DNA of 52,640 nucleotides from Brevibacterium sp. p3-SID960. Lineage in GTDB: Bacteria > Actinomycetota > Actinomycetes > Actinomycetales > Brevibacteriaceae. The position numbers and the translations under genes are program-made. The notes below the pieces were generated by a model that saw only the letters and a list, made by a program, of their open reading frames with translations, ran no database searches and was not told the origin of the DNA. Location of the stretch: contig NZ_JALXKS010000017.1 in NCBI RefSeq assembly GCF_025144725.1, forward strand, positions 1 through 52,640. Reading direction: 5' to 3'. Position 1 is the stretch's first letter, and every line of letters starts with the position of its first letter. Of this stretch, positions 28,976 to 48,327 are shown one piece after another.

Positions 28976-29611
28976 ATGGCACAGATACTCGATATCCATC
29001 CTGAGAACCCGCAGCCGCGGCTCATCCGCCAGGCCGCCAAGGCCATCGCCGATGGCGGTCTCGTCGCCTACCCGACCGACTCCTGCTACGCGCTCGGGTG
29101 CGCGCTGGAGAACAAGGACGGCATCGAGCGGATCGTCCGCATCCGCCAGCTCGACTCCAAGCACCACTTCACGCTCATGTGCCACGACTTCGCGCAGCTG
29201 GGCCAGTTCGTCATCGTCGACAACTACGCCTTCCGCACCATCAAGTCCCTGACGCCGGGGCCCTACACCTTCATCATGAAGGCGACGAAAGACGTGCCGC
29301 GGAAGATGATGCATCCGAAGAAGCACTCGGTCGGCGCCCGGATTCCGCAGAACGCCACCGCACTCGCACTGGTCGAGGAGGTCGGCGAGCCGATCCTGTC
29401 CTCAACCCTGCTGCTGCCCGATCACGAGGAGCCGCTGACCCACGCTGAGGACGTCGCCGAGGCGCTCGGAAAGCACGTCGACGTCATCATCGACTCCGGC
29501 GTGCCCGGCACCACTCCGACCTCGGTCATCGACTTCACACCCGGCTCACCGGTCGTGCGCCGGATCGGCGCCGGCGACATCTCCCGCTTCGACGACATCG
29601 ACGAAGCGTAA
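28976..29611 (+). CDS. L-threonylcarbamoyladenylate synthase-like protein (Sua5/YciO/YrdC family)
   Basis: A 211-residue protein of the YrdC fold. LIRQAAKAIADGGLVAYPTDSCYALGC is the conserved ATP/bicarbonate-binding start, and R-x-L-x-x-KHHFTLMC, TPGPYTFIMKATK and VGARIPQNATALALVEEVGEPILSSTLL follow. The HHF variant and length match the YciO subfamily better than true TsaC, which makes the precursor of t6A in tRNA; the exact reaction of YciO is less certain. Start chosen at the ATG next to a -10 element. It converges with the tetR gene 50 bp away. Confidence 0.9.
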   Translation: MAQILDIHPENPQPRLIRQAAKAIADGGLVAYPTDSCYALGCALENKDGIERIVRIRQLDSKHHFTLMCHDFAQLGQFVIVDNYAFRTIKSLTPGPYTFIMKATKDVPRKMMHPKKHSVGARIPQNATALALVEEVGEPILSSTLLLPDHEEPLTHAEDVAEALGKHVDVIIDSGVPGTTPTSVIDFTPGSPVVRRIGAGDISRFDDIDEA

Positions 29612-29661
29612 CCGCCAGTCCCGAAAGCCCGAGCCGCGGGGCCCAGCCCAGTGTTTAGCTC

Positions 29662-31976: not shown

Positions 31977-32792
31977 ATGGACGTCTCAGGCGCAGTCGCC
32001 GTCGTCACCGGCGGCGCCGGCGGCATCGGCCAGGCCATCGCCGCACAGCTCATCGACCGCGGGGCCTCCGTGATGCTCGCCGACGTCGCCGACACAGTCT
32101 CCGTGGTCGCCTCCGCACTCGGCTGCCGCGCCTGGCAGGGCGACTGCGCATCCGAAGACGGCATCACCGAACTCCTCGCCCGCACCCGCGCCGAACTCGG
32201 TGAGATCGACCTCTACTTCGCCAATGCCGGCATCGCCGGTGCGCGCGGACTCGGCGAATCCGACGCCGACTGGGACGCGATCCTCCACATCAACCTGCGC
32301 GCCCACATCCGCGCTGCCCAGGCGCTCATCCCCACCTGGCAGGCCAGGGGAGCAGGCTGCTTCGTCACCACCGCCTCGGCGGCGGGCCTGCTGACCCAGA
32401 TCGGACAGGCCGGCTACGCCGTGTCCAAGCACGCCGCGCTCGCCTTCGCCGAATGGCTGTCCATCACCTACGGCGATGACGGCATCCAGGTCGCCTGCCT
32501 GTGCCCGATGGGCGTGCGCACCGAACTGCTCATGGCCGGGCTCGACAGCGAGGACCCCGCCGAACGCGTTGCCAGCCGCTCAGTCTCCGAGGCCGGTGAG
32601 GTGCTCAGCCCCGAATACGTCGCCGCCTGCATCATGAGGGCGATCGACGACGGCACGTTCCTCATCCTGCCCCACCCGGAAGTCGCCGAGATGTTCCAGA
32701 TGAAGGGCTCCGACTACGACCGATGGCTGCGCGGCATGCGCCGCTACCAGGCCCGGCTCAAAGCCGAGGCCCGCACACACGAGAACACCTGA
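31977..32792 (+). CDS. SDR family oxidoreductase
   Basis: Short-chain dehydrogenase of 271 residues. [11 protein letters not shown] near the N-terminus binds NAD(P), followed by NAG in FANAGIAG, the catalytic Ser in TTASAAG, and YAVSK (Tyr-x3-Lys). The Asp after the second strand (MLADVAD) suggests NAD preference. The start at 31977 has AGAAGGGG upstream. An in-frame ATG at 31926, directly at the predicted transcription start, could give a leaderless form 17 residues longer. The substrate, presumably a hydroxyacyl-CoA or alcohol, is unknown. First gene of the plus-strand acyl-CoA operon. Confidence 0.9.
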
Positions 32793-32806
32793 GAGAAAGG
32801 CCAGCG

Positions 32807-34012
32807 ATGTTCGACGAGACCGACCGCGCCAAGGAGCTGCGCGAGAAGCTGGAGTCCTTCATGGACTCCCACATCTATCCAGCCGAACCCGTCTACCGCG
32901 AGCAGATGGCATCCCAGGATGACCCGCATGCCGTCCCGCCGATCCTCCAGGAGCTCAAGGGCGAAGCCCGATCCCGAGGACTGTGGAACCTCTTCCACCC
33001 GCACGAGGAATGGGGCCCGGGCCTGACGAACCTCGAATACGCCCCACTGGCCGAGATCATGGGCCGTTCACCGAACCTGGCGCCTGAGGCGACGAACTGC
33101 AACGCCCCGGACACCGGCAACATGGAGGTTCTCACGCTCTTCGGCACCGATGAGCACAAGGAGAAGTACCTGCGCCCGCTGCTCGACGGTGAGATCGCCT
33201 CCGGGTTCGCGATGACCGAACCGGCCGTGGCCAGCTCGGATGCCACCAACATCGAGATGCGCATGGAGAAGGACGGCGACGGCTACCTTCTCAACGGCCG
33301 CAAATGGTTCACCTCCAATGGCGCCCGCCCGGACTGCAAGGTCCTCATCGTCATGGGCAAGACGGACCCGAACGCCGAGAAGCACCGCCAGCAGTCGATG
33401 ATGGTCGTGCCCACCGGTGCCCCCGGTGTCGAGATCGTCCGCTCCCTGCCGGTCTTCGGCTACCTCGACCGCGAAAGCCACGCCGAAGTGACCTTCACCG
33501 ATGTGCGCGTCGAGGCCAAGGACGTGCTCAAGGGCGAAGGCGAGGGATTCGCGATCTCCCAGGCCCGCCTCGGTCCTGGCCGCATCCACCATTGCATGCG
33601 CGCCATCGGCATGGCCGAACGCGCTCTGGAATCCATGTGCCGCCGCGCCCATGAACGGGTGGTCTTCGGCGAGCCGCTGGCAGCCAAAGCCAACATTCAG
33701 GACTGGATCGCCGAATCCCGCGTCGACATCGACCAGGCCCGCCTGCTGACCCTGCATGCCGCTGACATGATGGACAAGGTCGGCAACAAGGAGGCCCGCA
33801 ACCTCATCTCCGAGATCAAGGTCGCAGCACCGAAGGTCGCCCTGAGCGTCATCGACCGAGCGATCCAGGTCCACGGTGGAGCCGGTTTGACCGACGACTT
33901 CCCACTGGCCGAGATGTACGCCCACGCCCGCACCCTGCGGATCGTCGACGGCGCCGATGAGGTCCACAAGATGACCATCGCCCGCCGTGAGCTGCGCAAG
34001 TACGCATCCTGA
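32807..34012 (+). CDS. Acyl-CoA dehydrogenase family protein
   Basis: FAD enzyme of 401 residues that introduces the 2,3 double bond into acyl-CoA. It has [40 protein letters not shown] (flavin and substrate contacts), the FAD-binding R-x-x-x-FG pattern in [12 protein letters not shown] and [34 protein letters not shown] near the end. The N-terminus [30 protein letters not shown] matches the family seen with medium/long-chain substrates. Start at 32807 with GAGAAAGG upstream, 14 bp after the SDR stop. Confidence 0.93.
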
Positions 34013-34058
34013 CCCGCACAGCCACCTGACCACACACCCCGAACCTGAAGGAGAACTT

Positions 34059-34811
34059 ATGACCCAGCGCACCGCCATCGTCACCGGAGGCGCCCGCGGC
34101 ATCGGCGCCGCGATCGCCGAGCGGCTGGCCGCCGACGGCATGAAGGTCGCCGTCGTCGACCTGAGCGAAGACGCCTGCAGCGATGTCGTCGCCCGCATCG
34201 GCGCAGCCGGCGGACAGGCCATCGGCATCGGTGCCGACATCACCGATGAGGACCAGGCCAACGCCGCCGTTCAGCGCACCGCTGAGGAGCTCGGCGCCCC
34301 GACTGTGCTCGTCAACAACGCCGGCATCATCAAGGACAACCTGCTGTTCAAGATGACCTCGGCTGACTTCACGAAGGTCCTCGACGTCCACCTGACCGGC
34401 AACTTCCTCATGACCAAGGCCTGCCAGTCCCATATGGTCGAGCAGAAGTTCGGCCGCATCATCTCGATGTCCTCGACCTCGGCGCTGGGCAACCGCGGAC
34501 AGACGAACTACTCGGCCGCCAAGGCCGGCATCCAGGGGATGACGAAGACGTATGCGATTGAGCTCGGCAAGTTCGGCGTCACCGCCAACGCGATCGCCCC
34601 GGGCTTCATCGAAACCGATATGACGAAGGCGACCGCCGAGCGCGTCGGCGTCGAGTTCGACGACTTCGTCGCCATGGCCGTCAGCCAGATCCCGGTCGCC
34701 CGCTCCGGCAAGCCCGAGGACATCGCCCACACCGCATCGTTCCTCGCCAGCGAAGGAGCCGGCTTCGTCTCCGGCCAGGTCATCTACGTCGCCGGCGGAC
34801 CCAAGGACTGA
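34059..34811 (+). CDS. FabG-like 3-oxoacyl reductase / 3-hydroxyacyl-CoA dehydrogenase (SDR)
   Basis: A 250-residue SDR. TGGARGIGAAI, NNAGI, the catalytic Ser in SMSSTSALGN, and YSAAKAG are present, and the end IPVARSGKPEDIAHTASFLAS...GQVIYVAGG is classic FabG. In a beta-oxidation cluster it more likely oxidises 3-hydroxyacyl-CoA than reduces 3-oxoacyl-ACP. The start at 34059 has AAGGAGA upstream; an upstream in-frame ATG at 33987 lies inside the preceding gene and is rejected. Confidence 0.92.
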   Translation: MTQRTAIVTGGARGIGAAIAERLAADGMKVAVVDLSEDACSDVVARIGAAGGQAIGIGADITDEDQANAAVQRTAEELGAPTVLVNNAGIIKDNLLFKMTSADFTKVLDVHLTGNFLMTKACQSHMVEQKFGRIISMSSTSALGNRGQTNYSAAKAGIQGMTKTYAIELGKFGVTANAIAPGFIETDMTKATAERVGVEFDDFVAMAVSQIPVARSGKPEDIAHTASFLASEGAGFVSGQVIYVAGGPKD

Positions 34812-34815
34812 CCTG

Positions 34816-36003
34816 GTGAGCGAACACGCACGCATTGACGAGGCGGTCGCGGCAGCCACAGCCGCGGCCGCCGGGCTCACCGGCGCCGAGGCGGAAGCGC
34901 GGGCCCCGCACGCCGGGCTGCTCTACGACTACGGCCTGGCCTGGGTGAACTTCCCGCGCGGCGCCGGCGGTCTGGGCGTCTCGGCGAGCCTGCAGGACTA
35001 CGCCGATGCCGCCGTTGACGCCGCTGGGCTGCACCGGCCGGACCCGCACGACAACGCGATCGGCTTCGGCATGGCCGCCCCGACTATCGCCGCCTACGGC
35101 ACCGCTGAACAGAAGACGTGGCTCAGACGCATCTACACGCTTGAGACGATCGTCTGCCAGCTCTTCAGCGAACCCGGCGCCGGTTCCGACCTCGCCGCCG
35201 TCGCAACGAAGGCCGTCCGCGACGGGGACACCTACCGGGTGACCGGGCAGAAGGTGTGGACCTCCGGAGCGCACAACGCTGACCTGGCGATCCTCATCGC
35301 CCGCACCGACCCGAGTGTGCCCAAGCATCGCGGACTGAGCTACTTCCTGCTCGACATGCACGCCCCCGGGGTCGAGACCCGCGGACTGCGCCAGATCACC
35401 GGCGAGGCCGAATTCAACGAAGTGTTCCTCACCGATGTGCCGGTGCCTGCATCCATGCGCCTCGGTGAGCCTGGCGAGGGCTGGAAGATCGCGAACACCA
35501 CGCTGAACAACGAACGGGTGGCGATCGGCGGGGGAGCACCGCGCGAAGGCGGCATGCTCGGCGTTGTCACGCGGGCCTGGCGCGAGCAGCCGGAGGTGCG
35601 CGATCCGCTGCTGCACGACGAGCTCATGCGGCTGTGGGTCGAATCCGAAGCCGCCCGGATGCTCGGAGAGCGCACCGCCCAGCAGGTCGCCGCCGGCCAG
35701 CCCGGGCCCGAAGGGTCTGGTGCGAAGCTGTCCTTTGCGCGCAACGCCCAGCAGCTCTCCGCCCTTGATGTGCGGATGCGGGGAGTCGACGGGCTGCGCC
35801 ACGACAGCTACGAGATGCGCCGGCCCGAGCACTATTCGATGACCGGCCGCACCCCGGTCTACCGGTACCTGCGTGCGAAGGGCAACTCGATCGAAGGCGG
35901 CACCAGCGAGATCATCCGCAACATCATCGCCGAACGCGTCCTCGGACTGCCCGGCGAACACCGCACCGACAAAGACCTGCCGTTCAAGGATCTGCCCAGA
36001 TGA
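34816..36003 (+). CDS. Acyl-CoA dehydrogenase, large partner of a two-gene pair
   Basis: A 395-residue dehydrogenase with CQLFSEPGAGSDLAAVATKAVRDGDTYRVTGQKVWTSGA and the C-terminal RAKGNSIEGGTSEIIRNIIAERVLGLPG signature. The next gene overlaps it by ATGA and encodes a second, divergent dehydrogenase. In actinobacteria such adjacent pairs often form alpha2-beta2 enzymes with one combined active site per dimer, acting on steroid side chains or other bulky acyl-CoAs. GTG start 4 bp after the previous stop, so the operon is tight here. Confidence 0.92.
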   Translation: MSEHARIDEAVAAATAAAAGLTGAEAEARAPHAGLLYDYGLAWVNFPRGAGGLGVSASLQDYADAAVDAAGLHRPDPHDNAIGFGMAAPTIAAYGTAEQKTWLRRIYTLETIVCQLFSEPGAGSDLAAVATKAVRDGDTYRVTGQKVWTSGAHNADLAILIARTDPSVPKHRGLSYFLLDMHAPGVETRGLRQITGEAEFNEVFLTDVPVPASMRLGEPGEGWKIANTTLNNERVAIGGGAPREGGMLGVVTRAWREQPEVRDPLLHDELMRLWVESEAARMLGERTAQQVAAGQPGPEGSGAKLSFARNAQQLSALDVRMRGVDGLRHDSYEMRRPEHYSMTGRTPVYRYLRAKGNSIEGGTSEIIRNIIAERVLGLPGEHRTDKDLPFKDLPR

Positions 36004-37136
36004 CCATCGAAATGCTCGACACCGAACTGGCCGCCGACCTCAGACGCACCGTGCGCGCGTTCCTCACCGAACGCTGCGACCCCGGCACCGTCGCCGAGGT
36101 GTACGACGACCCTGCCATCGCCTCCCGCGAGCTCAACGACGGGTGGGCTCGCGAACTCGGGCTCGCGGGACTGCTCGTCCCCGAAGCAGACGGCGGAGCC
36201 GGCGCCAGCCTCGCCGAAGCCGCCGTCGTCGCCCACGCGATCGGTCGGCATGCCGCACCGCTGCGCTTCCTCACCTCCGGCGTCATCGCCACCACCCTGG
36301 CAACCCGCGCCGGAGACCGCGACCTGGCAGCCGCCCTGGCTGCGGGCGACCGGTACGCCGCCGTCGCCTTTCCGGCCACCAGCCCGACCCTGAACAGCGG
36401 ACTGGCGGCAGCCACCGCCTCGAATGCGGACGAGGCGGGCACAGCCCACGTCAGCGGCACCATCGCAGGTGTGATGGAAGCAGCAGGTGCTGATGATCTC
36501 ATCGCCGTGCTCGGCAGCGGGGAGGACACAACGATCGTCGTCATCGACCCCGCGGAGGCACGCATTCTGCCCTTCCTCAGCCTGGACGAGACCCGCAGAC
36601 TCGCCGACATCACCGTCGAGAACGCAGCGGCACGGATCGTCGCCACCGGCCCCCAGGCGGTGGCTGCGGTCGAGGCGGCGACGCTGGCCGGGCAGGTGGC
36701 GCTGGCTGCCGAACTCGCCGGAACCGCGGCCCAGGCGCTCTCCACCACCCTGGACTACGTGCGCACCCGCGTGCAGTTCGGGCGTGCGGTCGGCTCCTAC
36801 CAGGCGATCAAACATCGGCTCGCCGATCTGTGGCTGGCCGTCAGCCAGGCCGATGCCGCTGCCACATACGCTGCTCAGACGGCGGCGAACTGGCAGCGCG
36901 GGGACGAGGATCTGCGCGAGGCCCGGATCTGCGCACTCACCGCGCTCGCCTACGCCGCTCCGGTCGCCGTGCAGGCCGCCGAGGAAGCCGTGCAGCTGCA
37001 CGGCGGAAACGGCATGACCTGGGAGTATCCGATCCACCTGCTGCTCAAGCGGGCCAAGGCCGGCGAGCTGACCCTCGGACATCCGGCAGCCAACCGCGCA
37101 GCCCTGGCCGAACTCACTGAGCTTCCCGTGTGGTGA
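36000..37136 (+). CDS. Acyl-CoA dehydrogenase, small partner of the pair
   Basis: A 378-residue dehydrogenase-like protein. It keeps the flavin-domain end RVQFGRAVGSYQAIKHRLADLWL and VQLHGGNGMTWEYPIHLLLKRAK, but the middle strands are Ala-rich and poorly conserved, and the EPGAGSD-type motif is replaced by VAFPATSP. This loss is typical of the non-catalytic subunit in heteromeric acyl-CoA dehydrogenases. ATGA overlap with the partner gene. Its 3' end contains half of a CRP-like site. Confidence 0.9.
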   Translation: MTIEMLDTELAADLRRTVRAFLTERCDPGTVAEVYDDPAIASRELNDGWARELGLAGLLVPEADGGAGASLAEAAVVAHAIGRHAAPLRFLTSGVIATTLATRAGDRDLAAALAAGDRYAAVAFPATSPTLNSGLAAATASNADEAGTAHVSGTIAGVMEAAGADDLIAVLGSGEDTTIVVIDPAEARILPFLSLDETRRLADITVENAAARIVATGPQAVAAVEAATLAGQVALAAELAGTAAQALSTTLDYVRTRVQFGRAVGSYQAIKHRLADLWLAVSQADAAATYAAQTAANWQRGDEDLREARICALTALAYAAPVAVQAAEEAVQLHGGNGMTWEYPIHLLLKRAKAGELTLGHPAANRAALAELTELPVW

Positions 37137-37145
37137 GGATCACAC
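37130..37145. promoter_or_regulatory. CRP/GlxR-like site before the thiolase gene
   Basis: TGTGG-N6-TCACA, one base off the TGTGA-N6-TCACA consensus. It straddles the stop codon of the dehydrogenase and lies 8 bp before the thiolase -10 element. Confidence 0.4.
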
Positions 37146-37153
37146 AGACGCAA

Positions 37154-37159
37154 TAGACT
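37154..37159 (+). promoter_or_regulatory. Candidate -10 TAGACT of the thiolase gene
   Basis: TAGACT lies 35 nt before the thiolase ATG, in a 58-bp gap. An AGAAAGGA ribosome-binding site follows. The -35 position is covered by the CRP-like site. Confidence 0.35.
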
Positions 37160-37194
37160 GACGGGGCGCCCCTCGTCATCCAGAAAGGACACCC

Positions 37195-38394
37195 ATGACA
37201 GACGCAGTCATCGTCTCCACCGCCCGCACGCCGATCGGCAGGGCCTATCGCGGCGCCTTCAACAACACCCAGCCGCAGGAACTCGCCGGCCACGCCATCC
37301 GCCACGCCGTCGAGCGCGCCGGCATCGAGGGTGCTGAAGTCGACGACGTCATCCTCGGCGCCGCCCTCCAGCAGGGCTCCCAGAGCGGCAACATCGCCCG
37401 CCAGGCCGCCTTGCGCGCCGGCCTGCCCGTCACCGTCTCCGGCATGACGATCGACCGGCAGTGCTCCTCCGGCCTGATGGCGATCGCCACCGCGGCCAAG
37501 CAGATCACCCACGACGGCATGAAGATCGCCGTCGGCGGCGGTGTCGAATCGGTCTCACTCGTCCAGAACGACAAGATGAACACCTTCCGCGCCAAGGACC
37601 CGTGGCTGGTCGAGAACATCCCAGGCCTGTACCTGCCGATGCTCCACACCGCCGAGGTCGTCGCCGAACGCTACGAGGTCTCCCGCGAGGACCAGGACGC
37701 CTACGCGTACGAATCCCAGATGCGCACCGCCGCCGCCCAGGATGGCGGCCGCCTCGATGCGGAGATCGTGCCGCTGGAGTCCGTGCAGCTGATCCAGGAC
37801 AGGGAGACCAAGGAGATCTCCGAGAAGACCGTCACCCTGACCAAGGACGAGGGCAACCGCCCGCAGACCACCCTGGACGGACTCGCCGGCCTCAACCCGG
37901 TGCTCGAACCCGGTGTCGCCTCCGCCCACCCGTCTATCACCGCCGGCAACGCCTCCCAGCTCTCCGACGGCGCCTCGGCCGCGGTTCTCATGTCCGATGA
38001 CGAGGCCTCCCGCCGTGGGCTCGAGCCGCTGGGCGTCTACCGCGGCATGGCCGTGGCCGGCTGCGAACCGGATGAGATGGGAATCGGCCCGGTCTTCGCC
38101 GTGCCGAAGCTGCTCGATCAGCACGGACTGAGCGTCGACGACATCGATCTGTGGGAGCTCAATGAGGCCTTCGCCGTGCAGGCACTGTACTGCCGCGACC
38201 GGCTCGGCATCGACCCGGAGCGCTATAACGTCGACGGCGGCGGCATCTCCGTCGGCCACCCCTACGGCATGACCGGCGCCCGGCTCACCGGCCACGCCCT
38301 CATCGAGGGCAAGCGACGCGGCGCGAAGCTCGTCGTCGTCACCATGTGCATCGGCGGCGGCATGGGCGCCGCCGGCCTCTTCGAGGTCTGCTGA
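37195..38394 (+). CDS. Acetyl-CoA C-acyltransferase (thiolase)
   Basis: Cleaves 3-oxoacyl-CoA with CoA in the last step of beta-oxidation. In the 399-residue chain the acylated Cys is in [12 protein letters not shown], the active-site His and Gly in [11 protein letters not shown], and the second Cys in [15 protein letters not shown]. The [16 protein letters not shown] segment is also present. Length is normal. It has its own gap with a candidate promoter, and a strong terminator follows, so it can be expressed apart from the dehydrogenases. No enoyl-CoA hydratase gene is present in the cluster. Confidence 0.95.
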
Positions 38395-38409
38395 CATCAG
38401 CCGGCCCGC

Positions 38410-38437
38410 GCCCGGCGGTCACCGTTGACCGCCGGGC
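38410..38437 (+). terminator. Terminator hairpin after the thiolase gene
   Basis: Perfect 12-bp stem (38410-38421 with 38426-38437) and a 4-nt loop, 16 bp past the thiolase stop. Confidence 0.7.
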
Positions 38438-38475
38438 ACACCCGAATTCCGAACATCACGATCCGAGGAGAGACG

Positions 38476-40149
38476 ATGAGCATTTCGGAGACCCGTCCCT
38501 GGCTCAAGACCTACAGCCACCTGTCCCAGCTCCATGAGCCCGTCCCGCACACCACCGGCGATGCGCTGCTGCGCGAGACGGTCGAGAAGTTCCCCGATCG
38601 CCGCGCCATCGCCTACTTCGGATACGAGCCCACGTGGGCCGACATCGCCCGCCAGACCGACGCCTACGCCGCCTGGCTGACCGACAAGGGCATCGGCAAG
38701 GGCGACCGGATCGGCGTGTACCTGCAGAACACTCCGCACTACCACATCGCTGTGTTCGGGGCGTGGAAGGTCGGCGCGATCCCGGTGCCGCTCAACCCGA
38801 TGTACCGCGACGAGCTCAGCCATATCTTCGCCGATTCCGGCATCCGCGGCCTCGTCGTCTCCGCCGCCGCCCACCTCGACCGGGTCAAGACCTACAGCCA
38901 GGACCTCGAATGGGTGCTCACCTGCCAGGACACCGACTTCCAGACGACCAACGACGAACGCATCTTCGGGATCTTCGCCGACCACTACGACACCGGCTGC
39001 GAAGAGCTCCTCGACGTCGTCAAAGCCAACGAGGGCCGTGCGGTGCCCGCCCCTGAGCTCAGCCCAGACGACACCGCGATCATCGGCTACACCTCCGGTA
39101 CCTCCGGCCGGTCGAAGGGCGCAGCGGTCACCCATCGCGGCGTGAGCGTCAACTCCCTGTCCCTGGGCATGCACCAGGGGCTTGACGAGAACGACGTCAT
39201 CTTCACCCTCGCCCCGGTCTTCCACATCACCGGCTTCGTCTGCCAGTTCATCGCCTCCGTCGCCATCGGCGCGGCCCTGGCGATGAACTACCGGTTCGAA
39301 CCGGCCAGCACCCTGGAGATCTTCCGCCGCGAGAAGCCGCAGTACATGGCCGGCCCGGCCACGGCTTACATGGCGCTGCTGGCGCACCCGACCTTCGAGA
39401 CCGACGCCTTCGACTCCTTCAAATCACTCATGTCCGGCGGTGCTCCGCTGCCCGATGCGATCGTGCGGAAGTTCGAAGAGCGCACCGGCCACTACATCGG
39501 CCAGGGCTACGGGCTGACTGAGACGACCGCGCAGTGCATCGTCGTCCCGCCGGGCATGCGCGCCCCGGTCGACCCCGACAGCGGCAACCTGTCCTGCGGG
39601 CTGCCGGTGCCCGACACCGTCGTGCGCATCCTCGACGACGACGGCAACGAACTCGGCCCCCGTGAGGTCGGTGAGATCTGCGTGCGCGGCCCGATGGTCG
39701 TCAGCGAGTACATCAACAACCCAAGCGCCTCGGCCTCGGAGATCCCCGGCGGGGAGCTCAGAACCGGCGATGTCGGTTTCATGGACGAAGACGGCTGGGT
39801 GTTCATCGTCGACCGCAAGAAGGACATGATCAACGCCGCCGGCTTCAAAGTCTGGCCGCGCGAGGTCGAAGACGTCCTCTACACCCACCCTGCCGTGCTC
39901 GAAGCCGCCGTCGTCGGCGTACCCGATGAGTACCGCGGCGAAACGGTCACCGCCTTTGTCAGCCTGCAGCCCGGCGCTGAGGCCACCGAGGACGAGCTCG
40001 TCGCCTACTGCCGTGAGCACCTGGCCGCCTACAAGGCCCCGCGCCACGTCAACTTCATCGAAGCGCTGCCCAAGACTGCCTCGGGCAAGATCCTGCGCCG
40101 CGAGATGCGCCGCATCGGAGCCGAGCAGGTCTCCGGCGAGGCGAGCTGA
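38476..40149 (+). CDS. Class I adenylate-forming acyl-CoA synthetase
   Basis: A 557-residue AMP-binding enzyme with AIIGYTSGTSGRSKGAAVTHRG (P-loop), IGQGYGLTETTAQCIV, TGDVGFMDEDGWVFIVDRKKDMINAAGFKVWP, and the catalytic Lys in PKTASGKILRREMR. It differs clearly from the ligase at 30.3-31.9 kb, so the cluster can activate two kinds of acids. The start at 38476 has GAGGAGAG upstream; the in-frame codon at 38425 lies inside the terminator region. Two hairpins follow the stop. Confidence 0.93.
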   Translation: MSISETRPWLKTYSHLSQLHEPVPHTTGDALLRETVEKFPDRRAIAYFGYEPTWADIARQTDAYAAWLTDKGIGKGDRIGVYLQNTPHYHIAVFGAWKVGAIPVPLNPMYRDELSHIFADSGIRGLVVSAAAHLDRVKTYSQDLEWVLTCQDTDFQTTNDERIFGIFADHYDTGCEELLDVVKANEGRAVPAPELSPDDTAIIGYTSGTSGRSKGAAVTHRGVSVNSLSLGMHQGLDENDVIFTLAPVFHITGFVCQFIASVAIGAALAMNYRFEPASTLEIFRREKPQYMAGPATAYMALLAHPTFETDAFDSFKSLMSGGAPLPDAIVRKFEERTGHYIGQGYGLTETTAQCIVVPPGMRAPVDPDSGNLSCGLPVPDTVVRILDDDGNELGPREVGEICVRGPMVVSEYINNPSASASEIPGGELRTGDVGFMDEDGWVFIVDRKKDMINAAGFKVWPREVEDVLYTHPAVLEAAVVGVPDEYRGETVTAFVSLQPGAEATEDELVAYCREHLAAYKAPRHVNFIEALPKTASGKILRREMRRIGAEQVSGEAS

Positions 40150-40168
40150 GTCACACGCCCGACCCGCT

Positions 40169-40186
40169 CCCGCAAGCTGCTGCGGG
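40169..40186 (+). terminator. Small hairpin after the acyl-CoA synthetase gene
   Basis: CCCGCA and TGCGGG pair around a 6-nt loop, 20 bp past the stop codon. Confidence 0.4.
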
Positions 40187-40195
40187 ACTATGATC

Positions 40196-40227
40196 GAGAG
40201 GCGGATGCCACACGGCGTCCGCCTCTC
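40196..40227 (+). terminator. Long hairpin between the synthetase and MATE genes
   Basis: A 14-bp stem with one G-T pair (40196-40209 with 40214-40227) and a 4-nt loop. It is either the terminator of the synthetase gene or a 5' leader structure of the MATE gene, because TATGAT (40189-40194) directly before it looks like a -10 element. Confidence 0.6.
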
Positions 40228-41599
40228 GGCACGTTCGCCCCCCACCGTCCGTCGAAAGGCCCGACCGATCGCCAGCCGCAACCGCTTCCTCGACAGGGAG
40301 ATCCTCGCCCTCGCGCTGCCGGCACTCGGCGCGCTGGCCGCCGAACCGGTGTTCCTGCTCGCCGACACCGCGATGGTCGGACACCTGGGACCGGCCTCGC
40401 TGGGTGCGCTTGCGATCGCCTCAACGATCATCCAGACGGTGCTCGGCCTCATGATCTTCCTCGCCTATGCCACCACCCCGCGGGTCGCCCGCAAGCTCGG
40501 TGAAGGCAACACCCCGGCCGCGATCGGCGCCGGCTTCGATGGCATCTGGCTGGCGCTGCTGACCTCGGTGCTCCTGCTGGCAGCAGGACTGCCGCTGCTT
40601 CAGGTGCCGATCAGCTGGTTCAACCCCACGCCCGCGGTGGCAGCCGGCGCTCACGCCTATCTTGCGATCTCCTGGTGGGGACTGCCGTTCATGCTCATCG
40701 TCATTGCCGCCACCGGGCTGCTGCGCGGTCTGCAGGACACCAAAACCCCGCTGTACGTGGCCGTCGGCGGGTTCCTGGCCAACATCGTCCTCAATGCCGT
40801 GTTCATCTACGGCCTCGGCATGGGCGTGGCCGGTTCTGCGCTGGGCTCGGTCATGGCGCATGTGGGCATGTGCTCGATCTACCTCGTCATCGCTGTGCGC
40901 GCCGCCCGCCGCCACCACGCACCCATCCGGCCGGACTGGTCCGGCGTGCTCGCCTCGGCCCGGACCTCCGGCTGGCTGCTCATGCGCAATATGTCGCTGC
41001 GGGCAGCGATGATCGTCCTCATCGTGCTCGCCACCGGCTTGGGAACCGTCCAGCTGGCGGCCATCCAGATCATCCAGACGCTGTTCAACTCCCTCGCCCT
41101 CGTCCTCGACGCGCTCGCCATCGCCGGACAGGCGATGATCGGCCTGCAGCTGGGCTACCGCAACCGCGAACAGGTCTCAGCGATCAACCGGCGGCTCGTC
41201 CAGTGGGGTATCGGCTTCGGTGTCCTCGTCGGCATCGTTCTGGCCGCCGTCTCACCGCTCATCGGCTTCGTCTTCACCTCCGATGCGGATGTGCGCAGCC
41301 TGCTGACCCCGCTCGTCATCGTCCTGGCGATCGGCATGCCGCTCGCCGGATACGTCTTCACTCTCGACGGCGTGCTCATGGGCGCCGAGGACGCCCGCTA
41401 CCTCGCCTTTGCGCAGCTGGCCGCCTTCCTCGGCTACTGCGGCATCCTCGCGCTCATCTACGCCCAATGGCCGACGGTGACGGTGCTGTGGGCCTGCTTC
41501 GGGATCGGCTTCGTCGCCCTGCGCGCGATCGGCCTGGGCTTCCGGGTGCGCAACGACGGCTGGATCCGCCGCGCCGAGGCAGTCGCCGAGCGCTCCTGA
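40205..41599 (+). CDS. MATE family efflux transporter
   Basis: Multidrug/metabolite antiporter with about 12 transmembrane helices, in the DinF-like branch. Conserved parts are REILALALPALGALAAEPVFLLADTAMVGHLG and the second-half equivalent RNMSLRAAMIVLIVLATGLGTVQLAAIQIIQ. The start is unclear. The family homology begins only at about 40275, and the codons before it (from the ATG at 40205 or 40190) lie in a strong hairpin. CGAAAGG at 40253-40259 sits 8 nt before an ATC codon at 40268, which would be a non-canonical start. Possible cargo: toxic organic cations. Confidence 0.88.
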   Translation: MPHGVRLSARSPPTVRRKARPIASRNRFLDREILALALPALGALAAEPVFLLADTAMVGHLGPASLGALAIASTIIQTVLGLMIFLAYATTPRVARKLGEGNTPAAIGAGFDGIWLALLTSVLLLAAGLPLLQVPISWFNPTPAVAAGAHAYLAISWWGLPFMLIVIAATGLLRGLQDTKTPLYVAVGGFLANIVLNAVFIYGLGMGVAGSALGSVMAHVGMCSIYLVIAVRAARRHHAPIRPDWSGVLASARTSGWLLMRNMSLRAAMIVLIVLATGLGTVQLAAIQIIQTLFNSLALVLDALAIAGQAMIGLQLGYRNREQVSAINRRLVQWGIGFGVLVGIVLAAVSPLIGFVFTSDADVRSLLTPLVIVLAIGMPLAGYVFTLDGVLMGAEDARYLAFAQLAAFLGYCGILALIYAQWPTVTVLWACFGIGFVALRAIGLGFRVRNDGWIRRAEAVAERS

Positions 41600-41675
41600 C
41601 CGCCAGACGGGATCTGCGCAGAAACCGCGGCTGCGACCATTACGCTGGTGGAGGCCGATGACGGAGAGGACACTC

Positions 41676-42170
41676 ATGCACATCACACCGCTGCCTGCAG
41701 ACTACACGCCTGAGCGCGCACGCGCGCTGCTGCTGCCCTTCCTGCTGCAGTGCATCAACTGGTCGCACAGCTCACCGGAGCTCGACGCCTCGGTCATCGA
41801 AGCCGACGACCAGCTCGCTGCCTACGTCGACGGCTGGGGCCGCGACGGCGACATCGCCGTCATCGCCTGGGATGAGGATCACCAGCCGGTCGGCGCTGCC
41901 TGGTGTCGGCTGCTGAGCGATCCGCCCGGCTACGGGTGGGTGGCCGATGACATTCCCGAGGTGTCCATCGCCGTGGCGCCCGACGCCCAGGGCAAGGGGG
42001 CCGGCCGCCAGCTGCTGCACACGCTGTGCCGACTCGCTGCTGTGTCCGGTCACCCGGCGCTGAGTCTGTCGGTGTCCGACGGCAACATGTCCAAGCACCT
42101 CTACACGCAGCTCGGATTCTCAGACATCGGCCGCTCAGGCGACAGCGATGTCATGCTCAAGGTGCTCTGA
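41676..42170 (+). CDS. GNAT family N-acetyltransferase
   Basis: A 164-residue acetyltransferase. The acetyl-CoA loop is VAPDAQGKGAGRQLLHTLCRLA (Q/R-x-x-G-x-G), and the last strands read ALSLSVSDGNMSKHLYTQLGF. Substrate unknown. The start at 41676 is chosen for GGAGAGGA 5 nt upstream; an ATG at 41658 is also in frame. TACGCT (41641-41646) may be its -10 element. It converges on the M1 peptidase gene, with a shared hairpin between them. Confidence 0.88.
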   Translation: MHITPLPADYTPERARALLLPFLLQCINWSHSSPELDASVIEADDQLAAYVDGWGRDGDIAVIAWDEDHQPVGAAWCRLLSDPPGYGWVADDIPEVSIAVAPDAQGKGAGRQLLHTLCRLAAVSGHPALSLSVSDGNMSKHLYTQLGFSDIGRSGDSDVMLKVL

Positions 42171-42204: not shown

Positions 42205-43512
42205 TCACCTCGGCAGCTGCGGCAGCTTCTCCTCGTACAGCCACGGGTCGACGATCGGCGCGACTGAGGAGCCGGTGACCTCTGCTGCCAGGTCGAGGAA
42301 GTCGGCGGTCGTGACGTAGCCGTACCGGTGGCGCTGCGTCCAGCCGCGCAGCAGCCGCCGGAACCACTCCTCGCCTACGTGAAGCCTGAGGGCGTGCAGC
42401 GTCAGCGCCCCGCGCTTGTAGATCCGGTCATCGAACATGTCGGCTGGGCCGGGATCGGCCAGCACCAGATCCTGGCGCTGGCTGTCGAGCAGGTCCCAGT
42501 GGATCTGGGCGAGCTCATCGGTGCGGCCGCGTCCGGCGGCCTGGGCCCACAGCCATTCGGCGTAGCAGGCGAAGCCCTCATTGAGCCAGATGTCCGACCA
42601 GTGGGTGAGAGTGAGTGAATTGCCGAACCACTGGTGGGCCATCTCGTGGGCGACGAGCCGTTCGGCCTCCCAGGTCGCGGCCAGGTGGTTCGGGCCCAGG
42701 ATCGACAGCGGCTGGGACTCCAGCGGGATCTCGAGGACGTCATCGGTGATGACGACGCCGTAGTGCTCGAAGGGGTACGGGCCGAACCAGTCGGTGAAGA
42801 TGCGCATCATGTCGTGCTGCTTGCCCAGAGCCCGCTGGGCGCGCTCCCGCAGTCCGCGTGAGCAGGCGATGCTCATCGGCACCGGGCCCGGCCGCTGGGC
42901 CGGTGCCAGCTCGGTCGTCTCGTACTGCCCGATCTGCACGGTCGCCAGGTACGGGGCCAGCGGCGCCTGGGACTCCCACACCCACCGGGTGCGCCCGGCC
43001 TTGCGGGAGGTGCTCACGAGCCGGCCGTTGGAGATGACGGCATACGGCGACTCGACGAGCACCGAGATGCGGAAGTCGGCTTTGTTCGAGGGATGGTCGT
43101 TGCACGGAAACCAGGTGGCCGCACCGTTGGGCTGGCCGGCGACGAGCACCCCGTCGGTCAGCTCCTCCCAGCCGACATCTCCCCACATGCCCATCGCCGG
43201 CTGCGGATTGCCGGCGTAGGAGATCTCGACGGTGCTCACAGTACCGCGCTGATAGGTCCGGCGGGGGAGGACGATGAGTTTGCGGCCGCGCTGCCGCCAC
43301 CGTGCCCGGGTGCCGTCGACGATCGCCTTGGACACCTGCAGGCCGGCGAGGTCGAGTTCGAAGGCGCTGCTGTCCTCCAGCAGCCGCACCCGCAGCCGGG
43401 CGTGGCCGGCGAGCCGGTTGGGGGCGATGCGGTAATCGAGCGTGAGGTCGTAGTGCTCGACACGCAGCATGGTGGTGCCGGAGTCAGGTGTGTAGGAGTC
43501 GACAGCGGTCAA
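42205..43512 (-). CDS. M1 family zinc metallopeptidase (aminopeptidase type)
   Basis: A 435-residue gluzincin. HEMAHQWFGN gives His289, Glu290 and His293, and NEGFACY gives the third zinc ligand Glu312, exactly 18 residues after His293. The usual GAMEN exopeptidase motif is replaced by IPLESQ (Glu265). The chain stops after the catalytic domain, so it lacks the long helical C-terminal domain of classical 850-residue M1 enzymes; this short form is known in actinobacteria. No signal peptide is seen. Its start overlaps the stop of the Pls-like synthetase by 4 bp, so it is translated with it. Epsilon-poly-lysine degrading enzymes of Streptomyces are zinc aminopeptidases (from memory), which makes degradation or self-protection a reasonable role. 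Confidence 0.92.
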   Translation of the reverse strand: MTAVDSYTPDSGTTMLRVEHYDLTLDYRIAPNRLAGHARLRVRLLEDSSAFELDLAGLQVSKAIVDGTRARWRQRGRKLIVLPRRTYQRGTVSTVEISYAGNPQPAMGMWGDVGWEELTDGVLVAGQPNGAATWFPCNDHPSNKADFRISVLVESPYAVISNGRLVSTSRKAGRTRWVWESQAPLAPYLATVQIGQYETTELAPAQRPGPVPMSIACSRGLRERAQRALGKQHDMMRIFTDWFGPYPFEHYGVVITDDVLEIPLESQPLSILGPNHLAATWEAERLVAHEMAHQWFGNSLTLTHWSDIWLNEGFACYAEWLWAQAAGRGRTDELAQIHWDLLDSQRQDLVLADPGPADMFDDRIYKRGALTLHALRLHVGEEWFRRLLRGWTQRHRYGYVTTADFLDLAAEVTGSSVAPIVDPWLYEEKLPQLPR

Positions 43513-46500
43513 CGGGCGTCCTCGGAATCGGTCGGGGTCTCAGCTGGGCAGGTGGTGCGTTCTGTGCCGGCCGGTGCGGGCCGGTGCGGGGTCTCCGGCA
43601 GCGGCGGGGCGTCGATCCAGGGGACGACGGGGTTGCCGGAGAAGTAGGCGTGCGGGGGCACGAACTCACCGCGCATGACCAGCGAGGTTGGCCCGACGGT
43701 GGCGGCCTGGCCGATCGTGGCCGCGGGCAGGATGACGCTGTTGGGCCCGAGTGTAGCGCCTGGGTCGAGGGTGACGGTGTCGAGTGCCATCACCCGGTCG
43801 TGGAACAGGTGCGTCTGGACGACACAGCCGCGGTTGACGGTCGAATTGTCGGCCAGGGTCACGAGGTCGGCTTCGGGCAGCCAGTAGGTCTCGCACCACA
43901 CGCCGTGGCCGATCTTCGCGCCGAGAGCGCGGAGGAACCACACGAGTGCCGGGGTGCCGACGGCAGTGCGCGCGAACCACGGGGCGGCGACGAGTTCGAC
44001 GAAGCAGTCGGCGACCTCATTGCGCCAGATGAAGCTCGACCACAGCGGATGCTCACTCGGCTGTGTCCTGCCGACAAGGACCCACTTGGCGATGACCGCA
44101 GTGCCGGCGGCGACCGCGCCAGCGGCCATCATGACGACACCGGAGCCGATGACCAGCGTCAACGGTGCCAGCACCGCCGCCGAGGTGCCGGTCGCCTGGG
44201 CCAGCTGCGCACCAGCCGACAGCAGCCCGTAGAGGGTGATGAGCAGCCCGGTGATGAGCAGGCCCGCGGTGATGACCGACAGGCCGCGCAGCGCCTCCCA
44301 GCAGCCGCGGGCGAACTTGAGCCGAGCCGGCGGATTGTAGGTCAGCGACTCATCGGCATCGACTTCGCTGCGGCGCAGCTCCACCGGCGGCGACCCGATC
44401 CACGAGCTGCCCTTCTTCGCCTTGGCGGGTGCTGCTGAGAGCACGGCGACGAGGGCGTTCTTCGGCACCCGGCGGCCGGCGGCGGCGATGCCGGAGTTGC
44501 CGAGGAAGGCGCGTTTGCCGACCTTCGCCCGGCCGATGCGCATCCAGCCGTGGCCGAGCTCATAAGAGGCGACCATCGTGTCATCGGCGAGGAACGCCCC
44601 GGAGGCGATCTGCGTCATCGACGGCACCAGCAGCACGGTGGAGATCTCGACATCGCGCCCGACCTTCGCGCCGAGGATCCGCAGCCACACCGGAGTGATG
44701 AGGCTGGCGTAGAGCGGGAACAGCAGCTCCCGGGCCATGTCGAGGATCCGCTCAGTGGCCCACAGCCGGAAGCCCATCATCGAACGCACCGGGAACAGCC
44801 CCTCACGCATCCCGAGGGCCAGCGTGCGCACTGCGATGACGACGAGTGCGGCGGTGGAGACGAACCACAGCAGCGCCTGCACCGGCGCCCAGGCCAGCAG
44901 CGTCAGCGGCTGGGCGAACACCTCGGGCCCGGTGAGCGCGAGCATGAGCGCCACGCCCGGGATGAGCGCGAGATACGGGATGAGGGCATGGAACTGGGAG
45001 CCGAGCGCGTAGAACAGGAACGGGGTGCGGGCCCGGCGGGTCGGCGGATCGGGCCAGGTGCGGCGCTTCTTGCCGATCCGCACGGCAGGCGAGCCGGAGA
45101 ACACCTGGTTCTTGCGCACCCGGCCGGTGACCGCGGAGCCGGGCTCGACGCGGGCGTCGGCACCGATCCGGGTGCCGGGCATGAGGGTCGAGCGGGCGCC
45201 GACGGTGGCGTCGCGGCCGATGTCGATCGTGCCGATGCGCAGCAGGTCGCCGTCGACCCACCAGCCCTTGAGGTCGACCTCGGGTTCGACGGCGGCACCG
45301 CGGTCGATCGTCAGCAGTCCGGTGACCGGCGGGATGGTGTGCATGTCGACGTCCGGGCCGATCCGGTTGCCCAGCAGCCGGGCGTACCACGTCACCCAGG
45401 GTGCGTTGGCGACGGACACCGCGCCGGCGAGGTCCTGGATGTGCTCGGCGAGCCACAGTCGCAGGTGCACGCTGCCTGAGCGCGGGTACACTCCCGGCCT
45501 GACTCCTGCCATGAGGGCGCGGGCGCTGAGCGCGGAGACGAGCATCTTGCCCCAGCCGGAGACGAACCCCGCCCACAGCACGATGACGAGCCACCACGGG
45601 GTGGTGATGAGCGGTGCGCCCTGCCAGGCGGCGAGGTTGGCTGCGGCCATGAGGAGGACGACCCAGCGCATCCCGGCCAGGATCGTCACGAGCGTGCCGA
45701 GCAGCGTCTGCAGCAACTGCATCGACCGGCGGGTGCGGGTGACGGTGCGATGCTGGCCGGGCACCGCGCTGCCGGTGCCCTCGTCGCCGAGGCACAGTTC
45801 GGCCAGCGCCCCGAAGCGCGGATGGGAGTAGACGTCGCCGACGGTGATGGTGGTGTGCCGGGCGCGCAACCGGGAGACGAGCTGGGCGGCGGCCAGGGAG
45901 CCGCCGCCGGCGGTGAAGAAGTCGGTGTCCATGCTCGGGCGGCCGCCGAGGACCGCCTGCCACTGCTCGGCGATCCAGTCGGCCTCCTCGGGCACCGCCT
46001 CACCGGAGGTGTCGTCGACGAGGTCGGCAAGCGGCCACGGCAGGGCATTGCGGTCGACCTTGCCGGAGGTCTTCGTCGGCAGCGTGTCGACGACCGCCAG
46101 GCGGGGCACCAGCGCCGGTGGCAGCACCTCGCGCAGCTGGGCTTCCCAGTCGGCAAGGGGCGCCGGCGCCGCGGTGTCGGCTGGGGCGAGGTAGCCGATG
46201 AGCAGCTCGGTGCCGGCGGGGGTGGATTTGACCGCGGCGGCGGCACCGGAGACGCCGGGCAGCGCCTGCAGGGCGGCGTCGATCTCCCCGAGTTCGATGC
46301 GCCGGCCGCCGAGCTTGATCTGCTCATCGGCGCGGCCGACGAACAGCAGCCCGGCGGGGTCGTTGACGACGAGGTCGCCGGAGCGGTAGGCGCGCTGCCA
46401 GCCGAGCGTAGGCATCGGCGCGTACTTCTCGGCATCCTTGGCCGGGTCGAGGTAGCGGGCCAGGCCGACGCCGCCGATGATGAGCTCGCCGGTCTCGCCG

Positions 46501-47501
46501 TCTGCGACGGGGATCCCCTCAGCGTCGACGATGGCCAGATCCCAGCCGTCGAGCGGCAAGCCGATGCGCACCGGGCCGGGCCCGCCGAGCGGGGCGGCGC
46601 AGGCGACGACGGTCGCTTCGGTCGGGCCGTAGGTGTTCCACACCTCGCGGGTGCCGTCGGAGAGACGCTGGGCAAGCTCCGGCGGACAGGCCTCACCGCC
46701 GAAGATCAGCAGCCGCACACTCTCAAGCGTCTCCGCCGGCCACAGCGCGGCCAGGGTCGGCACGGTCGAGACGATGCTGATGCGCCGGCCTGCCAGCCAG
46801 GGGCCCAGGTCCATGCCCGACTTCACGAGTGCGCGCGGGGCGGGCACCAGGCAGGCCCCGTGCGCCCACGCCAGCCACATCTCCTCGCAGCTGGCGTCGA
46901 AGGCCACTGAGAGCCCGGCGAGCACCCGGTCGCCGGGGCCGATCGGCTCGTCCTGGCAGAAGACCCGGGCTTCGGCGTCGACGAAGGCGGCAGCTGAGCG
47001 GTGGGTGACGGCCACGCCCTTGGGCTTGCCGGTCGAACCGGAGGTGAAGATCACCCAGCAGTCATCATCCGGCTGCGGGGCACGCAGGGCAGGCACCGCC
47101 TCGGCCGCAGGATCGCGGCGCGACTCGATCTGCAGCCCGGCGGTGACGATCGCGGTGACCGAGGCTTCGGAGAACACGGTGGCGGCCCGCTCATCGGGAT
47201 CGTCGACGTCAACGGGGACGTAGGCTGCGCCGATCATGAGGGTCGAGAGGATCGCAATGTAGAGGTCGGGGGTGCCGGAGGGCACACGGACACCGACCGT
47301 GTCGCCGGGGCCGACACCGGCGTCGTGAAGCTGATGGCCGAAGTCGCGCATCGCCTCCAGCAGCTGGGTGTAGCTGATCGAGCGCACCCCGTCGTCAAGC
47401 GCCGGTGCTTCGGGGTGCTGGGATGCGACGTCGATGAGGATGTCGATGAGCGTGCGTTCCGGGGCTGCGCGATGCGCTCCCGGGAACTGCGGTGCATGCA
47501 C
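43509..47501 (-). CDS. Pls/PosA-type non-ribosomal peptide synthetase (epsilon-poly-lysine synthetase-like)
   Basis: A 1330-residue membrane enzyme. Residues ~14-490 are an adenylation domain (CWVIFTSGSTGKPKGVAVTH, WNTYGPTEATVV, YRSGDLV, catalytic Lys481 in TSGKVDR). Residues ~505-570 are a carrier domain, with Ser535 in AGGGSLAAAQ for phosphopantetheine. Three membrane pairs (about 604-650, 825-895, 1066-1145) each precede a domain with hexapeptide-like beta-helix turns (for example IGRDATVGARSTLMPGTRIG), the tandem C1-C3 domains of Pls. There is no thioesterase. Aligned from memory to GrsA, the pocket residues are D202 A203 E206 S245 I266 G268 T290 V298 V299 K481, close to a lysine code. 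GTG start with GGAGGA 11 nt upstream. Product unproven; a cationic isopeptide homopolymer is the best guess. Confidence 0.92.
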   Translation of the reverse strand: MHAPQFPGAHRAAPERTLIDILIDVASQHPEAPALDDGVRSISYTQLLEAMRDFGHQLHDAGVGPGDTVGVRVPSGTPDLYIAILSTLMIGAAYVPVDVDDPDERAATVFSEASVTAIVTAGLQIESRRDPAAEAVPALRAPQPDDDCWVIFTSGSTGKPKGVAVTHRSAAAFVDAEARVFCQDEPIGPGDRVLAGLSVAFDASCEEMWLAWAHGACLVPAPRALVKSGMDLGPWLAGRRISIVSTVPTLAALWPAETLESVRLLIFGGEACPPELAQRLSDGTREVWNTYGPTEATVVACAAPLGGPGPVRIGLPLDGWDLAIVDAEGIPVADGETGELIIGGVGLARYLDPAKDAEKYAPMPTLGWQRAYRSGDLVVNDPAGLLFVGRADEQIKLGGRRIELGEIDAALQALPGVSGAAAAVKSTPAGTELLIGYLAPADTAAPAPLADWEAQLREVLPPALVPRLAVVDTLPTKTSGKVDRNALPWPLADLVDDTSGEAVPEEADWIAEQWQAVLGGRPSMDTDFFTAGGGSLAAAQLVSRLRARHTTITVGDVYSHPRFGALAELCLGDEGTGSAVPGQHRTVTRTRRSMQLLQTLLGTLVTILAGMRWVVLLMAAANLAAWQGAPLITTPWWLVIVLWAGFVSGWGKMLVSALSARALMAGVRPGVYPRSGSVHLRLWLAEHIQDLAGAVSVANAPWVTWYARLLGNRIGPDVDMHTIPPVTGLLTIDRGAAVEPEVDLKGWWVDGDLLRIGTIDIGRDATVGARSTLMPGTRIGADARVEPGSAVTGRVRKNQVFSGSPAVRIGKKRRTWPDPPTRRARTPFLFYALGSQFHALIPYLALIPGVALMLALTGPEVFAQPLTLLAWAPVQALLWFVSTAALVVIAVRTLALGMREGLFPVRSMMGFRLWATERILDMARELLFPLYASLITPVWLRILGAKVGRDVEISTVLLVPSMTQIASGAFLADDTMVASYELGHGWMRIGRAKVGKRAFLGNSGIAAAGRRVPKNALVAVLSAAPAKAKKGSSWIGSPPVELRRSEVDADESLTYNPPARLKFARGCWEALRGLSVITAGLLITGLLITLYGLLSAGAQLAQATGTSAAVLAPLTLVIGSGVVMMAAGAVAAGTAVIAKWVLVGRTQPSEHPLWSSFIWRNEVADCFVELVAAPWFARTAVGTPALVWFLRALGAKIGHGVWCETYWLPEADLVTLADNSTVNRGCVVQTHLFHDRVMALDTVTLDPGATLGPNSVILPAATIGQAATVGPTSLVMRGEFVPPHAYFSGNPVVPWIDAPPLPETPHRPAPAGTERTTCPAETPTDSEDAR

Positions 47502-47541: not shown

Positions 47542-47547
47542 ATCTTA
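47542..47547 (-). promoter_or_regulatory. Candidate -10 TAAGAT of the Pls-like operon
   Basis: On the minus strand TAAGAT lies 40 nt before the GTG start, with room for a leader and the GGAGGA ribosome-binding site. No clear -35 box; the 100 bp beyond it hold nothing else recognisable. Confidence 0.3.
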
Positions 47548-47652
47548 GCCCGTGGCCGGGCGGCGCTGCGGGAGCACCGGGCCGGGGCGCGGGGCAGGCA
47601 GGCTCACACCGCTCGGCCGGACTCCCAGGTGAGGCGAACCGAAGTGAGGGTC

Positions 47653-47658
47653 TACGAT
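47653..47658 (+). promoter_or_regulatory. -10 element TACGAT of the DedA-like gene (leaderless candidate)
   Basis: TACGAT lies 6 nt before the GTG at 47665, where the protein similarity also begins. This spacing is the same as for the sirtuin and Sua5/YciO genes. Confidence 0.45.
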
Positions 47659-47664
47659 GGAGCG

Positions 47665-48168
47665 GTGAATCCTGCCGACTGGCCGCTGCCGCTCTTCGTC
47701 GTGTGGCTCATCATGTACGCCGTCATCATCGTCCGCGCCGGCGGAACCTATCTGCTCGGCAGGCTCGCCCGCCGGGGTGTCAGCCGCATCCAGCGGGTCG
47801 AGCGGATCATGCAGTCTGCCCGCTATCAGCATGCCGAGCAGCTGCTGCGCCGCTACGGGGCGGCCGCGGTGGCGGTGAGCTTCCTGCTCATCGGCGTGCA
47901 GACCGTCGTCAACCTGGCCGCCGGGTCGATCGGCATGAGCCTGCGCCGCTACCTGCCGGCGCTCGGTCTGGGCGGAGCTGTGTGGGCGCTCATCTACTCG
48001 ACTGTCGGGCTCGTCGGCCTCAGTGCGATCGTCACCGCCTATCGGGAGAGCCCGGCCGTCACGCTCGGGATCAGCGCCGTCTTCGTCGCCGTGATCGTCG
48101 GGCTGACTTTCGGGCTGCGCCGCGCCGAGGCTGACCCGGGCCCCGAAGACCCGGACCCCGGAGCCTGA
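47665..48168 (+). CDS. DedA/VTT-family membrane protein
   Basis: A 167-residue membrane protein with four or five helices. The core LRRYGAAAVAVSFLLIGVQTVVNLAAGSIGMSLRRYLPALGLGGAVWALIYSTVGL matches the DedA/VTT re-entrant loop and following helix. DedA proteins recycle undecaprenyl phosphate carriers and affect resistance to cationic peptides. It is shorter than usual (~200 aa). The open frame runs upstream to a GTG at 47629, but the GTG at 47665 has a -10 element 6 nt before it and begins right at the first helix, so I prefer it. It is divergent from the Pls-like gene; a link to polycation resistance is a guess. Confidence 0.82.
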   Translation: MNPADWPLPLFVVWLIMYAVIIVRAGGTYLLGRLARRGVSRIQRVERIMQSARYQHAEQLLRRYGAAAVAVSFLLIGVQTVVNLAAGSIGMSLRRYLPALGLGGAVWALIYSTVGLVGLSAIVTAYRESPAVTLGISAVFVAVIVGLTFGLRRAEADPGPEDPDPGA

Positions 48169-48217
48169 ACCCGCGGGACTGACCCCAGCCTCGGCCCAGG
48201 ATCCCTGCTGATGCACA

Positions 48218-48250: not shown

Positions 48251-48327
48251 TGGTCGGGCTAGCGGGATTCGAACCCACGACCTCTGCACCCCCAGTGCAG
48301 CGCGCTACCAAGCTGCGCCATAGCCCG
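48251..48327 (-). tRNA. tRNA-Pro (anticodon GGG)
   Basis: Minus-strand tRNA of 77 nt including an encoded CCA end. The acceptor stem CGGGCTA/TAGCCCG, D-arm GCGC...GCGC, anticodon stem CTGCA/TGCAG with loop CTGGGGG (GGG at positions 34-36), 5-nt variable region, and T-arm GTGGG-TTCGAAT-CCCGC all fit perfectly. Discriminator base A. Confidence 0.97.

Follow-up and report, generated by a model that had tools for sequence, protein, structure and literature searches.

A predicted epsilon-poly-L-lysine synthetase gene and its adjoining M1-type peptidase gene in Brevibacterium

The pls locus and its neighbors

The window, which is the whole stretch of DNA that was analyzed (52,640 nucleotides), carries a gene for a Pls/PosA-family protein, here called pls, followed on the same strand by a metallopeptidase gene (Table 1). 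The pls gene is one open frame from 47501 down to 43509, with its frame and motifs intact, and a GGAGG stands 12 bases 5' of its start on the minus strand. The ORF check returned the coordinates and length given in an earlier sequence-only reading of this DNA and supplied the strand, which that reading did not give.

Table 1. Features of the locus. DNA coordinates of the domains within pls were converted from residue numbers.
Feature	Position	Strand	Basis or remarks
pls, predicted Pls/PosA-family NRPS-like epsilon-poly-L-lysine synthetase	43509..47501	-	ORF, 1330 aa, GTG start
Adenylation domain, residues 12-492, code DAESIGTVV + K481	46026..47468	-	phmmer alignment to 7wew_A; code via GrsA 1amu
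Peptidyl carrier domain, residues 508-569, phosphopantetheine Ser535	45795..45980	-	PF00550; GGGS at 532-535
C-terminal membrane polymerization module, residues 597-1292	43626..45713	-	TIGR02353 profile 2-695 of 695; hydropathy clusters
M1-family metallopeptidase ORF, 435 aa, HEMAH at residues 289-293	42205..43512	-	PF01433 + PF17900
GNAT acetyltransferase, convergent with the pls-peptidase pair	41658-42170	+	
MATE-family exporter, convergent with the pls-peptidase pair	39926-41599	+	
Three acyl-CoA dehydrogenase-type ORFs and a thiolase, then an acyl-CoA ligase-type ORF	32723-40149	+	
tRNA-Arg (ACG)	29550-29643	-	
VTT-domain membrane protein gene, divergent from pls	47629-48168	+	Protein conservation, codon-position GC
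tRNA-Pro (GGG)	48251-48327	-	

Pfam analysis of the Pls sequence shows an AMP-binding domain (residues 25-349, E 3.9e-64), a PP-binding domain (508-569, E 1.6e-8) and a hexapeptide repeat (761-793, E 8.2e-9), and neither a thioesterase nor a condensation domain was found by Pfam at E<=1e-3. The C-terminal subdomain of the AMP-binding region falls under its Pfam cut-off (20.9 vs 24.5 bits), and the TIGR01733 model for amino-acid adenylation is passed with 327.0 bits (cut-off 317.4). The terminal part of the protein matches the complete TIGR02353 profile (NRPS_term_dom, residues 597-1292) at E 1.4e-198, with 661.6 bits (cut-off 423.1). Given such E-values, chance is no concern for these matches. 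The tandem C-terminal domains of Pls have been described as acetyltransferase-related (PMC8117764), with which the hexapeptide-repeat match agrees. The domain order of the sequence-only reading, namely adenylation, a carrier with Ser535 as its serine and a membrane module without a thioesterase, is therefore retained. A simple hydropathy scan results in three hydrophobic clusters (599-657, 836-899 and 1070-1145) and a weak stretch at 79-100, within the adenylation domain. The clusters are consistent with the three membrane-pair units that had been proposed, but the scan itself gives no count of six helices.

On the other side of pls, a minus-strand ORF (47545-48216) was considered as an upstream partner and dropped, because protein conservation and codon-position GC favor the divergent VTT-domain gene; the ORF has no family match in Pfam or NCBIfam. 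Homologues of the VTT-domain protein, 51-57% identical, appear in five of the seven named Brevibacterium loci. Among the loci compared, matches to the MATE and GNAT genes were confined to those of the genus Brevibacterium, and any link of these two to the polymer is a guess. The genes further along the plus strand (32723-40149) are of the kind found in fatty-acid or related degradation.

The peptidase pair and its distribution in Brevibacterium

The listed TTG start of the peptidase ORF overlaps the pls TGA by four bases (TTGA), and translation could begin deeper within the ORF. Against the NCBIfam equivalog models for aminopeptidase N, the ORF scores far under the cut-offs (at best 123.9 vs 591.2 bits) and a motif search of the ORF did not find the G-x-M/A-E-N pattern, and on these grounds we read its sequence as that of an M1 relative and not of a standard aminopeptidase N. 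A homologue (at least 361 bits) lies downstream of pls on the same strand in all 80 named related loci; as these are the best 80 of at least 595 confirmed relatives, the uniformity is partly a matter of selection. The distance between the two genes, extrapolated from alignment ends, is within about 121 bases in 75 of the 80 and about 620 to 2161 bases in the other five.

Such a pair was described in S. albulus and in C. variabile, in the latter as an operon, and the peptidase gene adjoins pls here as it does in Streptomyces (PMC8117764). In contrast, posA is reported to stand alone in its operon (PMC10522769). PldII of S. albulus breaks down epsilon-poly-lysine, and a role in shielding the producing cell from its product has been postulated (PMC8117764). 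By analogy, the overlapping M1 peptidase is a candidate poly-lysine degrader, probably with the same self-protecting role.

The window DNA aligns best with seven Brevibacterium loci (L001-L007), with gene order conserved wherever flanks are present. The nearest genome among those searched (G001) encodes a Pls that is 96% identical, and this genome and its genus represent the window strain in the genome comparison. Over about 6.9 kb, four loci of that genus match B. epidermidis, B. iodinum, B. aurantiacum and a Brevibacterium MAG at 100% identity, which identifies the genus of G001 as Brevibacterium. A tree was built from 34 chosen rows (the window and 33 of its 117 relatives). The window Pls falls inside a 14-row Brevibacterium clade with support of 100/100, beside G001 and G020; the subgroup forks within the clade are weaker (93/90 and 85/82). 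A pls orthologue at an identity of at least 69% occurs in 43 of the 57 genus genomes searched, in two pieces in G013, G034 and G051. No close orthologue was found in 14 of the 57, among them G055, which has a 46% relative only. One in-match TGA is seen in six of the 43 genomes with an orthologue, and in two of these six (L089 and L105) the open frame ends near the C-terminus.

One possible option, compatible with a Pls-type enzyme, is that the gene is a true pls that is silent in ordinary culture or is losing its role in the lineage. According to PMC8117764, C. variabile itself gave no detectable epsilon-poly-lysine in the cultures tried and its Pls protein went undetected; C. glutamicum expressing the C. 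variabile pls made no epsilon-poly-lysine either. The C. variabile cultures fit this option, as do the genomes that lack a close orthologue and those with an in-match TGA. Yet the frame and motifs of the window gene are intact, and most genomes of the genus keep an orthologue, with only three in two pieces. We regard a silent or decaying pls as unlikely.

The adenylation code and the predicted substrate

The top structural relative of the window Pls is PDB 7wew, an epsilon-poly-L-lysine synthase, with 633.6 bits by phmmer; the comparison covers the adenylation domain only, which aligns throughout residues 12-492 and has identical specificity residues. The code alignment took in the window Pls, a GrsA segment with zero mismatches to PDB 1amu, a stretch of 7wew and the 117 relatives. 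Against GrsA, the nine core residues are D202, A203, E206, S245, I266, G268, T290, V298 and V299, and the A10 lysine is K481. These are the ten residues named in the sequence-only reading, all re-derived unchanged. The code of 7wew has the same nine core letters (DAESIGTVV), and the A10 motif TSGKVDR is common to both proteins. The earlier comparison had been made with DAESIGSVAK, which that reading gave as the lysine code of bacitracin synthetase and which has two differences from the window code. Pls itself is the better yardstick, since the match to 7wew is complete. The proposal of a lysine-type code is thus strengthened; the alignment with GrsA and 7wew gave no non-basic code, and the 7wew score, the complete TIGR02353 match and the code identity together bear out a Pls-type enzyme.

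The code DAESIGTVV was found in 113 of the 117 extracted relatives (106 of 110 without identical extracts) and in all 80 named loci. The other four relatives, L114 to L117, are all more distant, with 29-45% identity to the window Pls. L114 (G055), L115 (G044) and L116 (G054), from three genomes of the genus, are a distinct Pls/PosA-type synthetase, 44-45% identical, with the code DAESIGTVI in L114 and DAESIGSVI in the other two, and no M1 peptidase homologue was found in roughly 16 kb of these loci. G044 and G054 carry this divergent synthetase alongside an ordinary pls, and with two in-frame TGA codons in G044 and one in G054 the divergent copies may not be intact. The fourth, of 1523 residues (L117:5317-9888, in G009), is 29% identical, sits on a very long branch of the tree with an unsure placement, and has the code DFECLSVVT, whose second letter is the Phe reported for diaminopropionate/diaminobutyrate synthetases. 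It lies on one strand with an amidase, M20 and M28 peptidases and, overlapping the end of the synthetase gene, an HGSNAT-type acyltransferase ORF. Such a membrane acyltransferase ORF follows the divergent synthetase on the same strand in both loci examined for it (L116:4625-6319, minus; L117:9885-11156, plus), where it might modify the polymer.

Position 2 of the code is described as Ala in Pls, Met in PosA and Phe in the PDAP/PDAB (diaminopropionate/diaminobutyrate) synthetases (PMC10522769). The window Pls has Ala203, hence neither the Met of PosA nor the Phe of PDAP/PDAB, and by this published rule it would be a lysine enzyme. With PosA, the delta-poly-L-ornithine synthetase of Acinetobacter baumannii, it shares the family architecture together with Asp at position 1 and Glu at position 3 (PMC10522769); in the same report, activity with L-Orn was undetectable for PosA mutated at this Glu (E221A). 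In a comparison limited to these two enzyme types, the adenylation domain is far nearer to Pls than to PosA, as 8g95, the PosA adenylation domain (PMC10522769), scores 186.1 bits against 633.6 for 7wew. Since isolated PosA was co-crystallized with both L-Orn and L-Lys (PMC10522769), the code of an adenylation domain is no proof of its substrate. From the sequence, lysine is favored, and better supported than the sequence-only reading supposed: of the products it had listed, a cationic isopeptide stays likely and poly-lysine is preferred, whereas poly-ornithine and poly-diaminobutyrate are disfavored by the Ala at position 2. That the product is a different cationic isopeptide (poly-ornithine, poly-diaminobutyrate, poly-beta-lysine or a mixed chain) seems very improbable to us, for although the family includes such enzymes (PMC10522769) and the terminal-domain model is Pls/PosA-wide and blind to product type, the code and adenylation-domain scores point to Pls, the nearby genes are those of the peptidase, the GNAT acetyltransferase, the MATE transporter and the VTT-domain protein, and no aminomutase, aminotransferase or aspartate kinase was found in the 20 window ORFs scanned (base 13113 onward; 191 ORFs of at least 100 aa listed).

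Predicted function and place in the genus

Epsilon-poly-lysine is an antimicrobial polymer of joined lysines. We are highly confident, judging from the predicted protein, that the gene encodes an epsilon-poly-L-lysine synthetase common in Brevibacterium, that is, Pls in the functional sense; we are far less sure that the window strain makes the polymer under ordinary culture conditions. By homology, the adenylation domain would activate L-lysine as lysyl-AMP and the lysyl group would be loaded on the phosphopantetheine of Ser535. As in characterized members of the family, the tandem soluble domains of the C-terminal part, which would lie between membrane segments, would then form one amide bond after another, each from the carboxyl of a lysine to the epsilon-amine of the following one, and the chain would be delivered outside with no thioesterase involved. 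In analogy to PldII, the overlapping M1 peptidase probably degrades poly-lysine and so protects the producer.

Published results disagree on what sets chain length (PMC9223678). Repression of pldII led to longer chains; in earlier work cited there, the 25-35 range stayed the same when pld and pldII were inactivated, and mutations in the Pls linker, also cited there, alter chain length. We give little credence to the idea that the Brevibacterium isopeptide differs from known epsilon-poly-lysine in its length, residue mixture or fate (for example, being kept on the cell surface and not released), with the M1 peptidase helping to set the length.

The proposed synthetase had been thought not previously ascribed to such a locus, a view that does not stand beside the published record. 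Of the 15 Brevibacterium isolates considered by Jiang et al. (2021; PMC8117764), 14 were reported to have a Pls homologue, the pockets being either identical with those of confirmed Pls or very similar to them, and the C. variabile pls expressed in S. coelicolor gave a product confirmed as epsilon-poly-lysine. By the description in that paper, the Pls of C. variabile DSM 44702 and those of the Brevibacterium cheese and skin isolates have the same architecture as the window protein. The window strain very probably belongs to the same genus as these isolates; it may be absent from their list, and may itself be unlisted in print. The window pls is thus a genuine gene of an already known kind.

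What the locus adds is one more well-supported pls-peptidase pair in brevibacteria, and it opens no new question. The live question is one already raised in PMC8117764, namely whether coryneform bacteria express pls in nature. A literature query pairing brevibacteria with the skin microbiome returned nothing. Brevibacteria are found on cheese and skin, and epsilon-poly-lysine might serve there as a natural antimicrobial.
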